43,498 nucleotides of DNA. It comes from Candidatus Methylomirabilota bacterium (GTDB lineage: Bacteria > Methylomirabilota > Methylomirabilia > Methylomirabilales > Methylomirabilaceae). Below are positions 3-8,958 of the stretch, in pieces. The translations under genes and the position numbers were made by a program. Numbering within the stretch: position 1 is the first letter of the stretch; each line of letters opens with the position of its first letter. The stretch spans positions 1 through 43,498 of the forward strand of contig JACQQF010000016.1 in NCBI GenBank assembly GCA_016207095.1, in the 5' to 3' direction. The notes below the pieces were generated by a model. It had not been told where the DNA came from. It ran no database searches and saw only the letters and a list, made by a program, of their open reading frames with translations.

Positions 3-359
3 TTTATCCACATGATCCAGGGCCATATGTATATTGGCCCGGAGGAGAAGCCCGGCGAGAAGCCAGACAAAATGCCCCTGTATGCGGATAAGCCGTTGGA
101 AGGCTATGTGAACTACAGGCCGGGGACCGCTGGCAAAACAGCGCCCTTCGAGTGCATACCCAGGCATTTCCTCCTGGGGAAAGCCGACATGGTCAAGTTC
201 AGCATCCGGGGCAGGCCGGTGCGTGGATGGCGTCCTCAGCCGCCGTCCGCCGGTATCGCCGGAACCTTCGGTTACAAATGGGATATCCAGAAGCTTTCCC
301 CCGAGGTATGGCAGGAGTATCAGGAGAAGCGGAAGAAGGGTGAAGTGAAGGATTGGTGA
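3..359 (+). CDS. small protein of unknown function, possibly cut by the window start
   Basis: The frame is open from the first bases, so the gene may begin before the window. The first Met is at base 12 and gives 115 residues. The product is rich in Pro, Gly and Lys, with several aromatic residues and a charged C-terminus (EKRKKGEVKDW). I recognise no domain. It is followed after 20 bases by another small gene on the same strand, so these genes probably form the tail of an operon that lies mostly outside the window. Coding status rests on length and spacing only. Confidence 0.5.
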   Translation, partial: FIHMIQGHMYIGPEEKPGEKPDKMPLYADKPLEGYVNYRPGTAGKTAPFECIPRHFLLGKADMVKFSIRGRPVRGWRPQPPSAGIAGTFGYKWDIQKLSPEVWQEYQEKRKKGEVKDW

Positions 360-379: not shown

Positions 380-874
380 ATGCCGGAACCGAGAGGGAAA
401 GGGGCGGGTAAGGGTAGGCGTGCTGCTCGGGGAAAGGGAGTTGCGAAGGGGCGCAGGCCCAAGGCTAAAGGAACCAAGCCGGTTGCCCGGCGAGCCGTAG
501 CCCCGAAGAAGCGGGGCAAGCCGCTGGTTCCCAAGCCCGCTGGTCCCGCGGTCCCCGCTGCCGTTCCGAAGCCCGGTGTTGAGAAGAGAAAGGAGGCTGG
601 CATGGCCAAACAGGCAGAATTGACCCCTGAACAATTCATGGCCTCGCTTATTGCTCCGGAGTACAGCCGTGAGACGGGGCATCTATGCTGGGATTGCAAG
701 CACTTCAAGCCGGTTCAGAAAGGCTCCAAGTTCCCACCGGCAGACACCATCGGCTGGTGCACGCAGATCCACTGGCCCTTCTACTGGTGCATTACCGACT
801 TCAACGTCGTCAAGAAGTGTTACGCCCATGAAAAGGGTGTCTATGCGCCCTTTCAACCGGCTAGATTCCCATAA
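380..874 (+). CDS. Cys-rich small protein with basic low-complexity N-terminus
   Basis: The full frame gives 164 residues. Residues 1-74 are almost entirely Lys, Arg, Pro, Ala and Gly, like a disordered nucleic-acid-binding tail. Residues 75-164 form a compact domain with a CWDC pair followed by three further Cys near aromatic residues (WC, WC, KKC), which suggests an Fe-S or Zn site. A strong Shine-Dalgarno (GGAGG, about 592-596) sits just before an internal ATG at 602, so a 90-residue form starting there is likely and may be the main product. The CxxCxxF pattern loosely recalls the HiPIP-like small subunits of glycyl-radical fumarate-adding enzymes, but no such catalytic subunit is in the window and I do not assign that role. 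Confidence 0.55.
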   Translation: MPEPRGKGAGKGRRAARGKGVAKGRRPKAKGTKPVARRAVAPKKRGKPLVPKPAGPAVPAAVPKPGVEKRKEAGMAKQAELTPEQFMASLIAPEYSRETGHLCWDCKHFKPVQKGSKFPPADTIGWCTQIHWPFYWCITDFNVVKKCYAHEKGVYAPFQPARFP

Positions 875-883
875 GGCATTAGC

Positions 884-1177
884 GTGGAGGAAAACGTCCA
901 AAGAGAAGTGGAAACCCTCAAGGGGATGGTGCTTACCTGGAAGAGGAGTTATCTCGGGTGGGCACCCTCCGACGGGGGAGGTGAGTTCCTGGCTCAAGAG
1001 TTCTTGGAAGAGATCGAGTCGTACGTCTATCCCTACGTACGGAGGATGTCCGAGTGCGACTACCTCAGCGGACCTGAGGCGAAGGAGTTCCTCGACTTTT
1101 GCTACAACCAGGTCGAGGTTCTTCGCGACGCATTGAGGGAAGCCGAGGGCAAAGAACTTCACAAAAGAGGAGAGTAG
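884..1177 (+). CDS. small acidic helical protein of unknown function
   Basis: This 97-residue frame begins with GTG ten bases after the preceding stop. It is acidic and probably mostly helical, with a Tyr-rich middle (ESYVYPYVRRM) and two Cys. No domain was recognised. Its tight spacing with the genes on both sides and its shared strand argue that it is real and co-transcribed. It ends two bases before the next start codon, so translational coupling is likely. Confidence 0.5.
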   Translation: MEENVQREVETLKGMVLTWKRSYLGWAPSDGGGEFLAQEFLEEIESYVYPYVRRMSECDYLSGPEAKEFLDFCYNQVEVLRDALREAEGKELHKRGE

Positions 1178-1179
1178 AC

Positions 1180-1599
1180 ATGCCTGAGAAATGTCGTGTG
1201 GGTGTTTGTGGGTTCGATCCCATGATCGTGAAAGGATACGTGAAGACGGGGGAGAGAGCCTTGTGGTGGCACATCTCGGACGAACTATCCGAGGAATACA
1301 AGGTCAAGCCGGGTGATACCGTCTCGGGCAAGGTACTGGCGATCTACGATGGAACGGGGACGAAGACCGCATCCCCGAATGAGCCCTTTGAATGGAAGGT
1401 GTCCAAGGAGTCGGGCCTTGCGGTCCTGTTGCCGCCTGAGGCAATAACCAAACACCAGCTCTCGGCGTTTCACTTCCTGGAGCTGTTCATCGAGAACGTT
1501 GGTGACAAAGCGGTCTACCCGGGTAAGGAGCAGATGAGCTCCAAATGGTGGCCCGACGAGAAAATGAAGCTCGATTACAAGGTCAGTTACATAGCTTGA
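1180..1599 (+). CDS. small beta-rich protein of unknown function
   Basis: The ATG at 1180 follows a GAGGAG Shine-Dalgarno and gives 139 residues. An upstream extension of the frame to 1099 overlaps the previous gene and is probably not used. The protein has alternating hydrophobic strands and a KPGDTVSGKVLAIYDG segment typical of a small beta-barrel, plus an aromatic C-terminal part. I cannot name the family. It is the last of four consecutive small genes and is followed by a hairpin terminator. Confidence 0.55.
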   Translation: MPEKCRVGVCGFDPMIVKGYVKTGERALWWHISDELSEEYKVKPGDTVSGKVLAIYDGTGTKTASPNEPFEWKVSKESGLAVLLPPEAITKHQLSAFHFLELFIENVGDKAVYPGKEQMSSKWWPDEKMKLDYKVSYIA

Positions 1600-1812: not shown

Positions 1813-3009
1813 ATGACCAGCACAAGCGAAGTCGAGCAAGAGCGGGAGCCTCAGCACCCTGGCTGGCAGCCTCTAGCGAGCGTTCTCAACACAACAACTC
1901 CATTTTTTGAGAAATTCCTTTTCCTGCGGGGATATGGAAACTTTGCCTCCAACATTTACCTCATCATGGGGGACTATCTGACGATAGTGGATGCGGGCAA
2001 CGATTACACGGCATTTATGGACCTTTTCAGACTCAAGCTCAAGCCGGAGGACATCAAGAAGATTGTCATCACTCACGGACACCCCGACCATGCGATGGGG
2101 GCGTTTGAGCTTTTAAGATCGTATCCGATTATCAGGGAGAGTGGGGGGCTTGAGCTGATACTCCATGAAGCGGCGCCCAGCCAGCTTAAGGAGGGGGTGA
2201 AAGAATTCGGCTCCCGCGTCACCGAGGTGAGGGGCGGAGAGACTCTTGAGTTGAGCGGCATTGAATGGGAGGTGATTCACACGCCCGGCCATACCATAGA
2301 CGGGATATGTCTTTATCACCCCCTGACTAAAACGGTCTTTACTGGCGATATGGCATTACCCTACGCGGTGGGCGCGCCTGACAAATATGCCGGAGGAAGT
2401 CTGGAGCACTACTTATTCGGATTGAAGGCATTACTCAAGTGGGAGATTGAAAATGTCCTCCCCGGCCACGGCCTACCCGTAGCTCCTGGTGGGAGAAAAA
2501 TCGTCGAGGAGACCTACGAATGTGTGATGATGAAGATCATCGGGGTCGAACCCCAAACCACCACATGGATGGCAGGAGCGACGGCTCTCGCGCAACGGGG
2601 GCTTTTGGAGGAGGCCGTATTTTGCTGCGATAAAGAGATGGCCCGCAATCCGGAACATGTGAGGGCTCTCAAGCTAAAGGCTCTCTGTCTCAATGACCTC
2701 GGACAGTCTCATCAGGCCCTTGAGATCCTTGATAAATTGGGACAACTCAGCTCAAGCGACGACTCTTTCATCTTCATCGGCAAAGGGTATGCGCTGCTGG
2801 GGCTTGGCAAGTACCACGAAAGCATCAATTGCTTTGACGAGGCGTTGAGGATCAAGCCCGGCATGAAAGACGCGCTGGTGTACAAAGGGATGGCCCTGTA
2901 TCTCGCCGGGAACCATGAAGCGGCAATGGACATCGAGCAGTTCAGAACGGAGTTTGTGGGGAGATTCAAGGAAGAATTACTGAAGAAAAAGCAACCTTCA
3001 CATGAATAG
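1813..3009 (+). CDS. metallo-beta-lactamase-fold hydrolase with C-terminal TPRs
   Basis: This 398-residue protein starts with an MBL-fold domain (about 35-235). The metal ligands are all visible: THGHPDH (H88, H90, D92, H93), H161 in HTPGH, D180 in TGDM and H220 in PGHG. Residues about 255-375 form tetratricopeptide repeats. The fold covers thioesterases, glyoxalase II-like enzymes, lactonases and nucleases; the single GHG motif and short insert are closer to glyoxalase/lactonase-like members than to beta-CASP nucleases. It leads a co-directional cluster with E1, E2, Ubl and JAMM genes. A role in hydrolysing a Ubl thioester or an unrelated metabolite is only inference. A promoter-like TATAAT lies just upstream. 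Confidence 0.85.
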   Translation: MTSTSEVEQEREPQHPGWQPLASVLNTTTPFFEKFLFLRGYGNFASNIYLIMGDYLTIVDAGNDYTAFMDLFRLKLKPEDIKKIVITHGHPDHAMGAFELLRSYPIIRESGGLELILHEAAPSQLKEGVKEFGSRVTEVRGGETLELSGIEWEVIHTPGHTIDGICLYHPLTKTVFTGDMALPYAVGAPDKYAGGSLEHYLFGLKALLKWEIENVLPGHGLPVAPGGRKIVEETYECVMMKIIGVEPQTTTWMAGATALAQRGLLEEAVFCCDKEMARNPEHVRALKLKALCLNDLGQSHQALEILDKLGQLSSSDDSFIFIGKGYALLGLGKYHESINCFDEALRIKPGMKDALVYKGMALYLAGNHEAAMDIEQFRTEFVGRFKEELLKKKQPSHE

Positions 3010-3065
3010 TCGAAATGGCCAACTCCATACGATCAATGCCAAAAGAACAGTGAGGTATCAGTGAT

Positions 3066-3452
3066 ATGGAGGAACCAAGAAGAGCCCTACAAACGGAAGT
3101 ACTGGAACAGGTGCTGCCGCTCGTCCTTGAAATCATACCAGGACAGGCAGGCGAAGGATTAATTGACATATATGAACCGGGTAGCTACGAGGGTCAATCT
3201 CTTCGGAAGCTGTGTGAGAAGACGCTCGGCAACAAAAATTGGAGCATAGAGGAACAACAAATAGTGGAGGATATCTACAGACAACTCGACGGTGGAAGGC
3301 TCCTCTGCAGAGGACGACAAATCGAGGATACGGCTCTGCAGTACACTGTAGTTGAAGAAACTGACGCTGGAGAAAAATACCTCTACGTACCGATCCGGGC
3401 CATTAAACCCCAAGAGGGGGGACTCTATCCCTCCAAAAAGACCACCAGGTGA
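3066..3452 (+). CDS. ubiquitin-like (beta-grasp) modifier precursor with internal Gly-Gly
   Basis: The protein has 128 residues. Residues about 18-119 follow the ubiquitin pattern: two strands, a long helix region, then a segment RLLCRGRQIEDT that lines up with ubiquitin RLIFAGKQLEDG, and a final strand running into EGG. Gly118-Gly119 is followed by a 9-residue tail (LYPSKKTTR). That is the arrangement of a modifier precursor that must be trimmed to expose the diglycine. The JAMM protease encoded downstream is the obvious candidate for trimming, and the E1 and E2 for activation and transfer. Similarity was judged by eye, so identity to ubiquitin is low and the fold needs confirmation. The C-terminal strand is longer than in ubiquitin. 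It is the second gene of the cluster. Confidence 0.75.
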   Translation: MEEPRRALQTEVLEQVLPLVLEIIPGQAGEGLIDIYEPGSYEGQSLRKLCEKTLGNKNWSIEEQQIVEDIYRQLDGGRLLCRGRQIEDTALQYTVVEETDAGEKYLYVPIRAIKPQEGGLYPSKKTTR

Positions 3453-3464
3453 GAGAACCTCAAG

Positions 3465-3638
3465 ATGGACAAGCCGGAAAGGAAAAAATGGGACCCGAAT
3501 TGCCCGAAATGCAAAGAGGAGTTACAACGAGTCCTGGAGCTCTCTGAAGGGATATATGATGAGGTAGACCACGGGGCTGGGCTGTACCGGTTGTGTCCCC
3601 CGGATTACTGTAACCACGAAAGCAAGCAAGAGGCCTGA
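3465..3638 (+). CDS. 57-residue Zn-ribbon-like protein
   Basis: This short ORF begins 12 bases after the Ubl gene and encodes 57 residues. A CPKC pair (C13, C16) and a C-x4-C pair (C44, C49), with a nearby Asp and His, would make one Zn-binding knuckle arrangement. Between them lies a predicted helix. Very small treble-clef or Zn-ribbon proteins can act as adaptors or E3-like factors in ubiquitin systems, but nothing here proves that. The start is supported by position and by the absence of another ORF in the gap. A purely structural role remains possible. Confidence 0.55.
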   Translation: MDKPERKKWDPNCPKCKEELQRVLELSEGIYDEVDHGAGLYRLCPPDYCNHESKQEA

Positions 3639-3661
3639 CCCGGAAATACGATATCTCTCTG

Positions 3662-4885
3662 GTGAAGTGGCGAATGCGGCATCTGTTGGACTCTGATCTT
3701 GAACTTGTGGTCGAATCAGGATTTATCTACGTCCCACTCTTGTTGGATCCAGCTATAGAAAGAGAAATTCACACCCTCCCGAAACCAGACACCCTCATTC
3801 AGGGCGACGGCAAACTCTTCATAAAGACACTGAGCCTACAATCCGTGGTGGAGAACTACGAGAAAATCGATACGGATGTCTACAAACAGCTCAGGAACGC
3901 ATGTCAGCAAAAATATCGCCATGCTCTGGGTCTGAATGGAATATCGATAAGCGAAAAACTGAGAACAATACTGTTCCACGTAATGCCTCATTTCATTAGG
4001 AGGCACAAAAGCCTAGAACGGAAGAGGCGTAGCGAAGAAGAACTACTGGACTTGATCGGGGAGAGGATCAATCTCGCGGCGAGGTATCACGAAGATGCAG
4101 CTAAAATCCTCGACACAGATTCACTGCGGGAAGCGCTTCACGACCTGGAAGAACAAGGGGTAACGGTAGTTCCACCAAAGGATGGACAGATCGCAGCTCC
4201 GAAACTGCGGGAATGGCTCCTTCAGACATTAGAGCTGAAAATAGTGGACAACGAAAAGGGCCGTCTCAGACAAGCGCTGTACGAACGGGAGCAATTCGGC
4301 GAGGCGCAAAGGAAGCACCTCGCAATCCTGCTGTATATTGCTGAGAAAGGTTCCTTAGCGATAGATGGTTTTGGATTTTTCAGGATGGGCATGACCGATG
4401 AGTACATCGTATACAAGCACACGGGAGAATACGCCCTAAAAGATTACTACGGTCGCAACTACTTATTTCCTGATTGCAGAGTAGGTGTTTCCACCATTGT
4501 CCCCCTCAAGCCTGTCGTGCTGGAAACGTACAAACATCCATTCCTGGAAGGGTACGATTCACGGCAGCCGATCTGCTTGCGAGGTTACAGCCCCCCAAAA
4601 GTCTTCACTGCAGCGAACGCAATCAACGCATTGCAAGAGGGCATCAATGCATTGCTCTATGGCTACAGCAGCAGACGCCGCAATGGCTATCACAGCCTTG
4701 ATCAAATAACGAGGCTTGCTAGGACCGTCGATGTAGATGACGACATACTGCCCGATCACGAGGACTACCCGGTGATCTCAACGAGGCATGCACGGACTGT
4801 CAATTTCGATGATTACCGTGTCTCAAGCGATCACCCTAGAATCGCATCTGGACAAGTTGAGACCACAAATAATTACACCCCATAA
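3662..4885 (+). CDS. E2-like (UBC-fold) conjugating enzyme with helical N-terminal extension
   Basis: The protein has 407 residues from GTG 3662, or 403 from ATG 3674. Residues 1 to about 220 are mostly helical and unrecognised. Residues about 225-345 follow the E2 layout: a beta-meander (YYGRNYLFPDCRVGV), a Pro-Lys-Pro turn (LKPVVLETYKHPF) that parallels the E2 PPKVxFxTxxxHPN segment, then H292-P293 and Cys305 in PICL, followed by YSPPKVFTAANAINAL like the E2 WSPALTI helix. His-to-Cys spacing is 13, three longer than in classical E2s. C305 is the predicted thioester site. The last 60 residues are hydrophilic and probably disordered. The gene lies between the Ubl and the E1/JAMM genes, which supports the assignment; the match itself is by motif and not by search. 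Confidence 0.72.
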   Translation: MKWRMRHLLDSDLELVVESGFIYVPLLLDPAIEREIHTLPKPDTLIQGDGKLFIKTLSLQSVVENYEKIDTDVYKQLRNACQQKYRHALGLNGISISEKLRTILFHVMPHFIRRHKSLERKRRSEEELLDLIGERINLAARYHEDAAKILDTDSLREALHDLEEQGVTVVPPKDGQIAAPKLREWLLQTLELKIVDNEKGRLRQALYEREQFGEAQRKHLAILLYIAEKGSLAIDGFGFFRMGMTDEYIVYKHTGEYALKDYYGRNYLFPDCRVGVSTIVPLKPVVLETYKHPFLEGYDSRQPICLRGYSPPKVFTAANAINALQEGINALLYGYSSRRRNGYHSLDQITRLARTVDVDDDILPDHEDYPVISTRHARTVNFDDYRVSSDHPRIASGQVETTNNYTP

Positions 4886-4899
4886 CACCCCCACCCGTC

Positions 4900-4923
4900 C
4901 CCTCCCCCTTCAAAGGGGGAGGG
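4900..4923. repeat. G/C-tract palindrome between the E2-like and coiled-coil genes
   Basis: Perfect 11-base arms (4900-4910 and 4913-4923) are separated by two bases, inside a C- then G-rich tract in the 63-base gap. Similar tracts occur at 1650-1728. It has no T-run, so it may attenuate rather than end transcription, or may be a dispersed intergenic repeat. Confidence 0.5.
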
Positions 4924-4948
4924 TGAGGGAGGGGGTTAGGAGGGTGCC

Positions 4949-5281
4949 ATGGAAGCAAAGAACAGAGACTTAAAGAAAAAGATTGAAGAAGAAAGACTTA
5001 AGAACAAAAAACTCACGACAATGGAGCCCTTGGCAGTGGAGCCGGAAGAATGGCAGTCCTTCCGGAGGATGGCCCAGCCTCTCGAGAATGAGCACCTTGA
5101 GCTCCGGGTGCTCCTGCGAGATGCCGAAGCGGCCCTTCGAGCTAATCCTGAGGATGAATATCTCAAGACCAGGGTGGCCTATCTCAAGAAGCGACTGGAG
5201 GAGCTGGAAAAGAATGCCCCTTGGATTTCCTCAGATGGATCGTGGGAGTACCTGCTTTGGGGCGACGTCTGGGGATGTTAA
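4949..5281 (+). CDS. coiled-coil protein of the ubiquitin-like cluster
   Basis: The ATG at 4949 is preceded by an AGGAGG Shine-Dalgarno and gives 110 residues. The first 30 residues are almost all charged, and heptad-like Leu/Ala spacing runs through about residue 92, predicting a long coiled coil. The C-terminus is aromatic (SWEYLLWGDVWGC). No family was recognised. The stop overlaps the start of the next gene, so the two are translationally coupled. An adaptor or dimerisation role in the conjugation machinery is inference from position. Confidence 0.65.
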   Translation: MEAKNRDLKKKIEEERLKNKKLTTMEPLAVEPEEWQSFRRMAQPLENEHLELRVLLRDAEAALRANPEDEYLKTRVAYLKKRLEELEKNAPWISSDGSWEYLLWGDVWGC

Positions 5282-5745
5282 GCGTGGATTTGTTAAGACA
5301 CCTAAAAAGCGAGCGGGCGCAGAAGAAAACAAAGGAGCCCTTTCGTCGCGCGCTCTTTGACAGGATCAATAGTCTTGTTATGAAGTATGCTCTTGGGGAG
5401 ACGTTCTTAGAAAGACTCGGTAATTTCACAGATGATCTGCTCAGAGAAAGCGTGGAGTTCGACCGTCTGAAAGCGAAGGCGCATTTTGAACCTCCGTTGT
5501 TTTCTTTATCAACTGAAGAGGAATATCGTGTGACGAAGGCAATTATAAAGAAAGTCAATAATCCATACCTCCATTTCGTGAATTCACCGGATGAGATACT
5601 TATGTGCGGACCGCTTTTCAGTCGTAACCCCTTCCTTGGGCCTGATCAACTCGCACGCTACCATTTCGAAACCCTCCTGCTCTATGAACTGGCCAAGGAG
5701 AATCCAGGAGAGTTGGAAACACCAGGTGTAAATCACGGTGGTTGA
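5275..5745 (+). CDS. helical protein ending in Gly-Gly
   Basis: From ATG 5275, which overlaps the preceding stop, the product has 156 residues; the frame extends upstream to 5221 inside the previous gene. It is predicted mostly helical with one short strand region (EILMCGPLFS). The last residues are GVNHGG, so it ends in a bare diglycine like a mature ubiquitin-like modifier, although I do not see a beta-grasp fold. It could be a second conjugable protein, an adaptor for the AAA+ ATPase that follows three bases later, or the ending may be coincidence. No family was recognised. Confidence 0.6.
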   Translation: MLSVDLLRHLKSERAQKKTKEPFRRALFDRINSLVMKYALGETFLERLGNFTDDLLRESVEFDRLKAKAHFEPPLFSLSTEEEYRVTKAIIKKVNNPYLHFVNSPDEILMCGPLFSRNPFLGPDQLARYHFETLLLYELAKENPGELETPGVNHGG

Positions 5746-5748
5746 AAA

Positions 5749-6852
5749 ATGACAGACAGGATATCGGAACAAAGCCGGCAGCACATCAGAGAAAAGATTG
5801 GAGAACTGAGGGAGCACCAAATAAGCGAAACAGTGCAGCAAATCATAGAATTTAACAAGACACCGGTTGATATCAAGGCGTATATCGACAAGTTTGTGGT
5901 TGGACAAGAAAAAGGGAAAAAGGTCATCGCCACAGCAATAGCTTTTCACTACAGGAGGTTGGGCACCGCGCTGAAGCAGACGATAGGAGAAAACGGAGAA
6001 GATATTGGCGTCGCACTGCGAAACACGAGGACTCCAAAAGCTAACATCTTGATGATAGGACCTACCGGATGCGGTAAAACTTACACTGGCGAAATGGCTT
6101 CTAGATTGGTGGGGGTCCCTTTCGGCATACAAGACCTGACCAAATTTAGTGAAGTGGGCTACGTCGGACAGAACGTCAGCGACATACTCGTGGACCTTCT
6201 CATATCGGCTGGTGGAAACCCGCATGTTGCACAAATGGGAATCGTATATTTGGATGAGATTGACAAGATCGCAACTGAGCTCGTTGTGTACAAGGACGTG
6301 TCCGGAAGGGGTGTTCAAAAAGGGCTCCTGAAGCTGGTCGAAGGCGCGGAAAATACCATTGACCTGGGTAAGGAAAGGATCTCTCTATCCACCAGACACG
6401 TCCTGTTCATTGCAGGAGGGGTTTATGAGAATCTCGACAGTATCGTCAAAAACCGCATGGCCAAGCATGGTCTTGAAGGTGATTGGAAAGACTACCTCCT
6501 GGCCGATGACTTAGTAGCCTACGGTATGGAAAGACAGCTCATGGGGAGATTCCCTGTACGAGTGGTGTACGATCCGCTGACAGTTCAGGATCTCAAGGAC
6601 ATCATGATCAAAAGCGACGACAGCCCGTTGCGAGCCTATGTCAACGACCTCAAAACATGGGGCATCGACTTAACATTCACCGAGGATGCACTGACGGAAG
6701 TAGCCCAGCGTGCTGGGCACGAGGGAACAGGAGCTCGAGGATTGATAAGCATTCTCCATCGGGTGCTCTGTGAAGACATGTACCAGCTTCCTGGCACCTA
6801 TACGGGGGAAGTCGTAGTGGATAAGACTCACCTTTTGGAGAGATTACGGTGA
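5749..6852 (+). CDS. ClpX-like AAA+ unfoldase lacking Zn domain and IGF loop
   Basis: The protein has 367 residues of the ClpX/HslU clade. It shows Walker A GPTGCGKT (104-111), pore loop GYVG (137-140), Walker B IVYLDEIDKIA (165-175), an arginine-finger-like MGRFPV (265-270) and sensor 2 GAR (328-330). The N-terminal Cys4 Zn-binding domain of true ClpX is absent and replaced by about 35 helical residues. Where ClpX carries its IGF loop for docking ClpP, this protein reads GGVYENLDSIVKNRM with no IGF. So it is probably an unfoldase that does not feed ClpP. Its stop overlaps the JAMM gene start (GTGA), which suggests that the two products work together, as the Rpn11 deubiquitinase and the AAA+ ring do in the proteasome. 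No clpP is present nearby. Confidence 0.88.
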   Translation: MTDRISEQSRQHIREKIGELREHQISETVQQIIEFNKTPVDIKAYIDKFVVGQEKGKKVIATAIAFHYRRLGTALKQTIGENGEDIGVALRNTRTPKANILMIGPTGCGKTYTGEMASRLVGVPFGIQDLTKFSEVGYVGQNVSDILVDLLISAGGNPHVAQMGIVYLDEIDKIATELVVYKDVSGRGVQKGLLKLVEGAENTIDLGKERISLSTRHVLFIAGGVYENLDSIVKNRMAKHGLEGDWKDYLLADDLVAYGMERQLMGRFPVRVVYDPLTVQDLKDIMIKSDDSPLRAYVNDLKTWGIDLTFTEDALTEVAQRAGHEGTGARGLISILHRVLCEDMYQLPGTYTGEVVVDKTHLLERLR

Positions 6853-7652
6853 GATTCAAAGTCCTCTCGGGGCTGAAACGGCCGGAACTCCATGAGATAG
6901 TCCTGGCGACGTTGCCGGAACATATTTCGATGGCCCAATACGCCATGGCGAAGGCCTTCAAAATAAGCGAGCTGGTCCGCGTGATCCACAAAGGGAGCTA
7001 TGAATGGTATGGGTACACCATTGCGAACAGAGGCAGTCCTGAACTTATAGCCGATATAGGCCTGCCAAAGAACGATCAGAACTTCTTTGACTACACAAGG
7101 ATCGGCCCTGAGAGGATAGCCGGGTACCAGGAATCGCTTCCCATGGCCACGGTCATCAATGGATGGATACACTCTCACGGCGATCTGGAGTACGAGCACT
7201 TTTCAGGCACCGATGAGAGAAATCAAGTGACGGTTCTCGATTATGTCACAGCGCTCTTGAGGAAGCCGGTCGCAAAGAAGGAAGTCGTGATAAAGGATTT
7301 GGTATTATTGCTGAAAGATGAGTGTACTGAGAAAAGTCTGGAGAAAGGGAGTGTTTCTCTCATAACGGATGCTCCTGTCGCTGAAGCTAGGATATTGGAG
7401 ACCATCTATGGCAGCTTTTGTTACGCGATGGTGATTGGCGACGAAGGTTGGCACAAACAGGAGATACACTACAAGAGAAGGGGCATCCTATCAGGCCAAA
7501 CGACTGTGAGCAAAAAAGAAGCATGTATAGTATTCGTCGATACGGGCAGGTTTTTGACACAGTCTGATATTGGCGCGCTCAGTGACGAAGTTAGAGAGAA
7601 AGTTCAACCAATGATCTCGATGCCGGAACGGTTCGAAAGAGGTTGCACCTAG
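6849..7652 (+). CDS. JAMM/JAB-family isopeptidase (deubiquitinase-like)
   Basis: The GTG at 6849 overlaps the AAA+ stop by four bases and gives 267 residues. The JAMM motif is visible: E52 near the strand YEWYGY, H108-S-H110, S119 and D122. The H-to-D spacing is one residue longer than in the canonical HxHx10D. The zinc ligands and catalytic Glu are therefore intact. The C-terminal half (about 140-267) is an extension without clear match. Expected activity is cleavage after Gly-Gly, either maturing the Ubl precursor (removing its 9-residue tail) or removing it from targets. The order of AAA+, JAMM and E1 genes supports a role in the same pathway. Confidence 0.85.
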   Translation: MRFKVLSGLKRPELHEIVLATLPEHISMAQYAMAKAFKISELVRVIHKGSYEWYGYTIANRGSPELIADIGLPKNDQNFFDYTRIGPERIAGYQESLPMATVINGWIHSHGDLEYEHFSGTDERNQVTVLDYVTALLRKPVAKKEVVIKDLVLLLKDECTEKSLEKGSVSLITDAPVAEARILETIYGSFCYAMVIGDEGWHKQEIHYKRRGILSGQTTVSKKEACIVFVDTGRFLTQSDIGALSDEVREKVQPMISMPERFERGCT

Positions 7653-7716
7653 GCATAAGGCAACTCCCAATAGCGGGTCAAGAAATACGAGATCCAAGCA
7701 GGGGAAGAAGGAAAGG

Positions 7717-8958
7717 ATGCTGGAAGAAAGACTTGATAGACAGCTCCGTATAGAGGGCTGGGACCAACGCCTATTGACCGAGGCAAGAATAGGGGTAGTA
7801 GGCGATGACGACCTCTTGGTCTCACTGTACGCCATGTCATCATCGGCTCTCGGGCTAAATAATATGGTTGTCATAGCGCCACGATTGGACGACTCGCTGC
7901 TCGACACTGCGCGGAGGATTAATCCAGCATTCAACATGATTCTTATCGAAGGGTATTACACACACCCGGTTATGGATGATATCTTCACCGGGTGCACTGC
8001 TATTGTTGACCTGAGTCAGTATGGCTTAGCGAACAAGCTGTTGCTGAAGAAAGGCTTCGAACAAGACACGCCTATCATTCGAGGGTTCTGCTACGCACAA
8101 GATGACCAGGAGGGTTTCAAGGTATTTACGTATGTGAAGGGACGAGAGTGGCAGGACCTTGAGCAGATCGTCTCACGGCGGAATCTGCCGAACGACCACT
8201 CTGATGATGGCGTGTTGGATATCATAGGTTCAGGCGTAGTATTGGAACAAACGAAGAATGTCTTGATGGGTCGGAACGTATCGGAGGATGTGATAGGCTA
8301 CAATAGAAAGATATTGGAGACGCCGCGGTGCGATCCCCGAATATGTGTTGTCGGTGCGGGGGCACTCGGCAATTTCGTCGGGCTAGGGCTCGCGTATTCA
8401 GGACTCCGAACCATCACAATCATAGATCCTGATTTGGTAGAGATGACAAATCTCAATAGGCAAGTTTTCCTCTATGACGCCATTGGGTTGAGCAAGGCAG
8501 AAACACTATCCGAAAGGCTCAACAGGTTTTTCGGAACCCACGCTCAACCCCGCGTGATGTACTTCAGAAAAGATACCGACATTTCGCCGTACGATGTGAT
8601 CTTCGATTGCGTGGATAATTTTGAAACCAGAATAGTGCTGAGCGAAAAATGTAAGGACGAGGGCAAGGTACTCATCAGCGGCGGAACTAACTCAGCTGCA
8701 GGTCAGGTCGTGGTGTTTGATCCCAGTCAAGGTGATGGAACGCCAGCAGAGCTGCTGGGACTGTATGATATCGTTGATAAGCGGCGGATCGAACCATACC
8801 GACGGGACACAGTATCCTGCGCGTACCAGGCGGATCCGGCCGTCATCATGACGAACCAAATCATTGCTGGCTTTATGGTTGATTCCTACAGGATGCTCTT
8901 AGGCGGTCAGGTGAGAAGAAATATTTTCTACAATTCAACTTGCGGTATCAGAATATGA
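7717..8958 (+). CDS. E1-like (ThiF-fold) activating enzyme with two Rossmann domains
   Basis: The protein has 413 residues. The N-terminal half (1 to about 190) opens with LDRQLRIEGWDQ, which parallels the start of eukaryotic E1 proteins, and holds a degenerate nucleotide fold (GVVGDDD, no GxGxxG). The C-terminal half is an active ThiF domain: GAGALG (213-218), D237, NLNRQ (245-249), FDCVDN (296-301). Cys368 in SCAYQADP is a candidate catalytic Cys. No CxxC zinc pairs are present. The inactive-plus-active pairing resembles eukaryotic E1 heterodimers rather than ThiF/MoeB homodimers. It should adenylate the Ubl Gly-Gly end and pass it to the E2-like protein. It is the last gene of the cluster. 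Confidence 0.85.
   Translation: MLEERLDRQLRIEGWDQRLLTEARIGVVGDDDLLVSLYAMSSSALGLNNMVVIAPRLDDSLLDTARRINPAFNMILIEGYYTHPVMDDIFTGCTAIVDLSQYGLANKLLLKKGFEQDTPIIRGFCYAQDDQEGFKVFTYVKGREWQDLEQIVSRRNLPNDHSDDGVLDIIGSGVVLEQTKNVLMGRNVSEDVIGYNRKILETPRCDPRICVVGAGALGNFVGLGLAYSGLRTITIIDPDLVEMTNLNRQVFLYDAIGLSKAETLSERLNRFFGTHAQPRVMYFRKDTDISPYDVIFDCVDNFETRIVLSEKCKDEGKVLISGGTNSAAGQVVVFDPSQGDGTPAELLGLYDIVDKRRIEPYRRDTVSCAYQADPAVIMTNQIIAGFMVDSYRMLLGGQVRRNIFYNSTCGIRI

Follow-up and report, generated by a model that had tools for sequence, protein, structure and literature searches.

A conserved bacterial gene cassette with a predicted ubiquitin-like conjugation cycle and a ClpX-like AAA+ ATPase

The 2.9-Mb draft genome of a Candidatus Methylomirabilota bacterium (assembly GCA_016207095.1) carries a core of six genes, UBL-E2-ORF6-ClpX-JAMM-E1, at positions 3066-8958 of the 43.5-kb contig JACQQF010000016.1 (C65; all 43,498 nucleotides were analysed and are called the window here). 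On balance, we lean toward the view that this core runs a ubiquitin-like (Ubl) conjugation cycle, in which a ClpX-type motor without the ClpP loop would unfold tagged proteins and a JAMM-type protease would recover the tag. At the sequence level this view is based on the gene set, its two conserved orders, the PQEGG motif of UBL with the tail behind it, the conserved residues of the E1, JAMM, AAA+ and E2 proteins, and the absence of the ClpP loop; a ubiquitin-like fold for UBL and an E2-like fold for E2 are predicted by structure models. A previous reading of the DNA letters by a model (the sequence-only reading) had proposed that a Ubl conjugation cassette lies here together with a ClpX-like unfoldase, and the fold models and the conservation of gene order both agree with that proposal. 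The six core genes are as follows.

3066..3452, + strand: UBL, a 128-aa ubiquitin-like precursor, with Gly118-Gly119 at 3417-3422 and then a 9-residue tail
3662..4885, + strand: E2-like protein of 407 aa, an N-terminal region plus a UBC-like part with Y290-x-HP-x-L...Q-x-I-C305
5284..5745, + strand: ORF6, core protein, with a probable GTG start at 5284 (an ATG at 5275 is possible)
5749..6852, + strand: ClpX-like AAA+ ATPase with conserved motor motifs; zinc domain and IGF loop both absent
6849..7652, + strand: predicted JAMM-type metalloprotease, with E52-x-x-G, H108-S-H110 and S119-x-x-D122
7717..8958, + strand: E1, with a C-terminal ThiF/E1 adenylation domain and C368; N-terminal half unmatched

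Conservation of the core

A pattern scan with one genome per species yielded 44 related loci, whose titles name Deltaproteobacteria, Desulfo- or Syntrophobacter-type organisms, save one "uncultured bacterium" (L041). The full core was present in 30 of the 44, and in 8 of the 14 incomplete loci it lies less than 1.5 kb from the locus end. E2 was found in all 44 loci (by construction), UBL and ORF6 in 42 each, ClpX in 37, E1 in 36, and JAMM in 34. Wherever at least two core genes occur (43 loci), they share a single strand, and the complete loci show two orders, UBL-E2-ORF6-ClpX-JAMM-E1 (21 loci) and E1-UBL-E2-ORF6-ClpX-JAMM (9 loci). In the window, the JAMM start overlaps the ClpX-like stop by 4 nucleotides (GTGA), an overlap shared by 25 of 34 related loci that hold both genes. 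The sequence-only reading, which had singled out this overlap and had named the presence of the gene set in other genomes as a point to check, is borne out on both. The residue counts given below come from alignments A2 to A7, which contain 32, 37 (28 from the loci and 9 from the database), 28, 29, 28, and 31 relatives, respectively, picked for length and spread; the ORF6 of the window was taken from 5278, where there is no start codon, in the comparisons and in A7. Of 395 Desulfobacterota genomes sampled, 21 have UBL, and the carriers of the set include an organism with a strain name, Desulfoferrobacter suflitae DRH4 (L030). Judging from gene content and order, the core is a gene module held together across dozens of bacterial genomes.

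Two genomes have the set at two sites. In one (L018 and L058), it is split into E2-ORF6-E1 and, far off, UBL-ClpX-JAMM, with an apparent decayed E1 remnant upstream of UBL at the latter site. The other (L016 and L059) has an additional, apparently partial copy, with UBL-E2-ORF6 and E2-ORF6-ClpX-JAMM-E1 at separate sites.

UBL and its Gly-Gly

PQEGG is conserved in all 42 UBL sequences from the loci and in 117 of 120 UBL homologues (the best 120 of 758 database matches); the statistics on the Gly-Gly position in database homologues refer to these 117. Conservation ends after the Gly-Gly, and a variable tail of 0-76 residues follows, as pro-ubiquitin likewise has a tail beyond its Gly-Gly. PDB sequence-profile searches with UBL and JAMM were uninformative. 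A beta-grasp fold for the gene at 3066 had been set beforehand as a test of the sequence-only reading; the structure model is beta-grasp-like, with one such domain in the 128 residues, and all 50 structural matches listed for it are ubiquitin-like, although the match scores of both the UBL and the E2 models are middling. In this model, the second Gly superposes on the final Gly of ubiquitin, SUMO, and ISG15. The Ubl with Gly-Gly that had been claimed is thus upheld in its predicted fold and its conserved Gly-Gly, but the Gly-Gly is internal, with 9 residues after it. UBL would serve as a covalent tag on protein lysines. In L005 and L015 (9144-9959 in each), a long in-frame extension stands behind the Gly-Gly of UBL, resembling a ubiquitin fusion precursor, and that of L005 is a GNAT acetyltransferase domain.

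E2, E1, and JAMM enzymes

A search with the E2-like protein gave 616 homologues at E 0.001; none of its 38 aligned members matched a Pfam E2 family model (scan to E 10) and no related PDB chain was found for it by sequence. Its structure model gave E2 or UEV titles in 49 of the 50 structural matches listed; the remaining one is an Fts complex, Fts being an E2 variant. In the motif Y290-K-H292-P293-F-L295...Q302-x-I304-C305, which resembles the E2 HPN...IC signature, the HP and the C are invariant in the 38 sequences and the Asn of an HPN-type motif is replaced. H344, downstream of the Cys, reaches 90% conservation or more among 20 close sequences but stays below 90% among the wider 38. The UBC-like model and the invariant HP...I-C residues agree with the E2 assignment of the sequence-only reading, and the protein is likely a transfer enzyme of the E2 type.

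The C-terminal half of E1 contains a ThiF domain (Pfam, 5.2e-32) and matches UBA1 (2.2e-21), MoeB, SAE2, and ThiF in a PDB profile search. All 30 sequences compared share its ATP motifs and C368 without variation, and C368 is, by its position, a candidate thioester cysteine. Residues 1-200 matched no Pfam model, and the best PDB profile stretches begin at position 180 or later. Of the two Rossmann domains ascribed to this E1, therefore, the C-terminal one is supported by profiles, but the N-terminal one is not.

The presumed metal-site residues of JAMM, E...HxH...SxxD with an H-to-S spacing of 8, are invariant in 29 sequences. Prok-JAB was matched by 12 of these 29 members (best 1.7e-4, with an E cut-off of 10), while the copy in the window did not match Prok-JAB in the Pfam scans, including that to E 10. 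As the sequence-only reading had it, the product is predicted from these residues and family matches to be a JAMM-type protease.

The ClpX-like motor and ORF6

The ClpX-like protein matches ClpX at 1e-73 and keeps the key Walker A and B, GYVG pore-loop, Arg-finger, and sensor-2 residues in 29 sequences, the GYVG being invariant. It has no zinc domain: the ClpX match starts at profile position 40, which aligns with ClpX residue 67, and the N-terminus is short in the alignment. The [ILMV]GF loop is missing from 16 of 16 cassette ClpX-like proteins, whereas it is present in 8 of 8 ClpX proteins of standard length and in 8 of 8 longer (~600 aa) ClpX paralogues, the ClpX set coming from the genomes of 15 of the 44 loci and from the host; an HslU-like protein in the same comparison is also without it. 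The IGF-less ClpX relative noted from the sequence is thereby confirmed as such. The host genome has its own clpP next to a standard-length clpX, plus an HslU-like gene. Many cassette genomes also encode a further ClpX paralogue, ~550-650 aa long and equipped with an IGF-type loop (L071-L077, L079), which often outscores standard ClpX against the cassette motor.

ORF6 was described as a helical protein ending in Gly-Gly, and a role as a second Gly-Gly protein was considered and rejected: C-terminal Gly-Gly occurs in none of 42 relatives (one of them partly masked), so that the ending in the window is a coincidence. The window copy has no Pfam match.

Setting of the cassette and the UP1-UP4-MBL operon

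Seven more genes accompany the core in the window.

12..359, + strand: UP1, truncated by the contig end so that just its C-terminal part is present, Cys-rich, with a conserved block; member of the UP1-UP4-MBL operon, outside the Ubl core
602..874, + strand: UP2, small Cys-rich protein (a longer reading frame starts at 380); alignment A10 of 7 sequences; no family assigned
884..1177, + strand: UP3, of the same operon; no family assigned
1189..1599, + strand: UP4, co-distributed with the Ubl cassette; no family assigned
1813..3009, + strand: metallo-beta-lactamase-fold (MBL) hydrolase with TPR repeats (Pfam Lactamase_B, 8.3e-27, and TPR); member of the UP operon
3465..3638, + strand: 57-aa CxxC protein, accessory, possible Zn ribbon judging from its cysteines
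4949..5281, + strand: CC, short coiled-coil-like protein, accessory, in 12 of the 44 related loci at varying positions

The nine co-directional genes of the sequence-only reading are all present as gene calls, all on the + strand, and the assignment of the MBL-TPR gene at 1813 to the cassette did not hold. This gene goes with UP4: when regions were retrieved with UP4 as the sole query, from 20 of the 35 genomes that match it, all 20 had an MBL gene downstream of UP4 and in the same direction (the region set also included 9 loci collected before and the window). The cassette boundaries of 1813..8958 were thus too wide, and UP1-UP4 at 12-1599, which track the occurrence of the cassette, had been left out.

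UP4 was found in 35 of the 395 Desulfobacterota genomes, namely, in 18 of 21 UBL-positive and 17 of 374 UBL-negative genomes (odds ratio 126, Fisher p 9e-19, kinship ignored), two weak matches (G311 and G345) being counted among the 17. In 16 of the 18 genomes with both, UP4 and UBL are on different contigs, and in one more they are ~1.5 Mb apart; close linkage is therefore not the whole reason for their co-occurrence. In L032 and L037, the UP and Ubl modules form one run with two genes in between; the second of these in L032 (8316-9473), directly upstream of UBL, is a NifS-type cysteine desulfurase (6.1e-148), and the corresponding position in L037 is taken by a 387-aa gene of almost equal size. 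In 14 of the 20 UP4-fetched regions, UP1 is preceded by genes of one CoA-transferase family, whose members in L032 match class III CoA-transferases; a sigma-54-type regulator is often found ahead of UP1-UP4-MBL too. UP1-UP4 of L032 had no Pfam match, and searches of UP1-UP4 relatives against NCBIfam gave a single chance-level match, with none for the L036 UP1. The idea that UP2 is a small subunit of the benzylsuccinate-synthase type was discarded, as UP1 and UP2 have no PDB match below E 0.4. The UP1-UP4-MBL operon is a possible client or regulated pathway of the Ubl cassette.

In the phylum of the window, UP4 occurs in 2 of 95 genomes and the JAMM gene in 1 of 95. The other UP4 carrier (G012) has UP1-UP4-MBL and a CxxC gene on a 7.7-kb contig without core Ubl genes, and its genome gave no match to the cassette JAMM. 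An AAA-like reading frame (L108:1791-3815, P-loop GAPGTTKST) stands right behind UP1-UP4-MBL and CxxC in a genome where the cassette JAMM has no match.

The CxxC gene was not found in the 44 related loci, and the protein itself was scanned with PADLOC only. Its cysteines are present as the sequence-only reading stated, but the label of Zn ribbon derives from them alone. A CxxC-like stretch stands in frame behind UBL in 6 of the 120 UBL homologues listed (P0134, P0145, P0176, P0184, P0198, and P0220), and the protein was also seen in L087 and L108:3865-4053, its settings being either beside UBL or after MBL without UBL.

The GC content is 50-55% over the first 9 kb of the window, against 58-65% past 10 kb. 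Because of this shift and because JAMM is present in 1 of 95 genomes of the phylum, the cassette was probably acquired by transfer. The same contig has reading frames that look, by eye, like cytochrome oxidase and other respiratory genes; therefore, a binning error is unlikely as the origin of the contig.

Proposed mechanism

In the cycle that we propose, JAMM would trim the tail of UBL and expose Gly119, E1 would adenylate UBL, with C368 as the candidate thioester cysteine, and UBL would be handed to C305 of E2 and then to a substrate lysine. A hexamer of the ClpX-like protein may then thread the conjugate while JAMM, encoded by the overlapping gene, cuts off UBL. The unfolded product would be released rather than fed to ClpP, because without the IGF loop ClpP could not dock. 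ORF6 may be a substrate adaptor or scaffold, which is a guess. Maturation, activation, and transfer have an archaeal precedent, as passages of PMC5654768 describe, and, of two fusions examined, one showed an effect of substrate folding on JAMM cleavage, according to the relevant part of PMC6043591. That the motor is coupled to Ubl conjugates, and to which substrate, is what we infer. The likening of the cassette to the proteasome base plus Rpn11 in the sequence-only reading is reasonable as an inference. Only tentatively, and with more doubt than confidence, do we go further and suggest a self-contained tag-unfold-recycle pathway with a ClpP-free motor and JAMM, a counterpart of Cdc48 and of the proteasome base with Rpn11, that would serve a CoA-linked UP1-UP4-MBL system.

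Alternative explanations

UBL might be a sulfur carrier, trimmed by JAMM and turned into a thiocarboxylate by E1 and a cysteine desulfurase, with the sulfur going to a metal-sulfur center or cofactor, perhaps in the Cys-rich UP1 and UP2, whose operon partner UP4 is co-distributed with the cassette. JAMM-trimmed sulfur carriers exist (QbsD/QbsE, CysO/Mec+), the E1 half strongly matches ThiF and MoeB too, and the desulfurase of L032 and the similar-sized gene of L037 stand directly upstream of UBL. However, a desulfurase beside the cassette was noticed in 2 of 44 loci, with no systematic search made, and neither a dedicated E2-like protein with an invariant Cys nor an unfoldase is known to have a role in sulfur-carrier pathways; we consider this explanation unlikely. 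Alternatively, the ClpX-like protein may remodel the conjugation machinery or act as a chaperone in UP maturation, the Ubl cycle being a regulatory switch on UP proteins. The missing ClpP loop, the strong co-distribution with UP4 (with kinship ignored, as above), the interleaving of the two modules in the window, and the presence of another AAA-like reading frame after UP-MBL-CxxC in a relative whose contig lacks Ubl genes are all consistent with such a role, which we nevertheless find quite improbable, since the key residues of a protein-threading ClpX, in pore loop and ATPase, do not vary among the 29 sequences and the gene overlap (25 of 34) is with JAMM.

An anti-phage defence function like that of Bil, Bub, or type II CBASS, with UBL put on a phage or signalling protein, seems to us decidedly improbable. 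The enzyme classes are the same as those of known defence operons, the spread is sporadic (UBL in 21 of 395 Desulfobacterota genomes, JAMM in 1 of 95 of the window's phylum), the GC content of the first 9 kb is lower than beyond 10 kb, and the PADLOC models mad2, mad3, and RT-Protease_XI each matched one of 150 flanking proteins (150 of 151 chosen, up to 8 per locus, from 20 of the 44 loci). Few of these 150, however, match PADLOC at 1e-10, and two of them, matching DndA/SspA, are read as cysteine desulfurases; among the 126 Pfam families that the flanks contain, the 25 commonest are mostly metabolic, and the cassette accompanies a metabolic-looking operon. Membership in a known anti-phage family was rejected, as PADLOC recognized a generic E1 domain in the cassette and otherwise gave weak matches (MBL, TPR, ORF6, AAA). 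Carriage by phages or plasmids, tested with E2, was rejected as well: E2 had no match in 50,697 phage records, 72,556 plasmid records, or a scan of viral contigs. Because of the weak or generic PADLOC matches, the metabolic flanks, and the absence of E2 matches in phage, plasmid, and viral sequences, a physiological role of the cassette is favoured over defence.

Comparison with known systems

We take the type 6d operon, as named by Iyer, Burroughs and Aravind in 2006, to be PRTRC, and the cassette stays below the NCBIfam PRTRC models (55.2 bits for PRTRC_ThiF against a cut-off of 144.75, and no match for UBL, E2, or JAMM). The 6A-MBL anti-phage system (NF058523) also has an E1-type domain and a nearby MBL gene, but the cassette scores 45.6 bits against its cut-off of 320, and the MBL here is from another operon. 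ClpX of ClpXP has the AAA+ core, Walker motifs, GYVG pore loop, and sensor-2 in common with the cassette motor, and differs in its zinc domain and IGF loop, both absent here, where the gene is linked to JAMM and not to clpP.

Passages of the 2006 catalogue describe type 6d as an operon with a separate small UBL whose C-terminal Gly is conserved, an E2-like protein with a conserved Cys, a JAB, an E1, and one more protein (PMC1779556); separate UBL, E2-like, JAB, and E1 genes are likewise found in the cassette. According to the same passages, the downstream His of the E2 is absolutely conserved in type 6d (PMC1779556), unlike H344 of the cassette, which is kept at 90% or more in the 20 close sequences and below that in the 38. 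The cassette adds the ClpX-like motor, and the word ClpX is absent from the main text of the catalogue (PMC1779556). In type 6a, as described there in part, E2, E1, and JAB are in one protein (PMC1779556), whereas they are separate here. BilABCD shares UBL, E2, JAB/JAMM, and E1 with the cassette, and its JAMM protein, BilC, processes the UBL precursor; BilA, however, has two ubiquitin-like domains against one here, and the four genes described in the relevant passages are without an unfoldase (PMC11354881). The ubiquitin operon of Candidatus Caldiarchaeum subterraneum resembles the cassette in the 9-residue tail of its pro-ubiquitin, the trimming by JAMM, and the E1/E2 cascade, but is archaeal and includes a small RING protein, and no ClpX-type ATPase is named in the passages that describe it (PMC5654768, PMC6043591). 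The enzymes are thus of the kinds of known bacterial Ubl/E1/E2/JAB operons, and the dedicated IGF-less ClpX with JAMM is the apparently new part within the literature searched: among the papers listed, none describes a ClpX-plus-Ubl cassette in its title or the opening of its abstract, later catalogues being outside this scope, so that an earlier description is possible.

Implications

The known bacterial Ubl operons in the literature examined tag proteins, and none of them has an unfolding motor of its own. Because six small genes would make up the whole pathway and a named strain carries them, it should be feasible to rebuild it in vitro, and the co-occurrence with the UP operon offers an initial clue to a client. 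Should tagged proteins be what the motor works on, bacteria would have evolved, from a ClpX scaffold and with no proteolysis, the same tag-motor-isopeptidase logic that Cdc48 and the proteasome follow.

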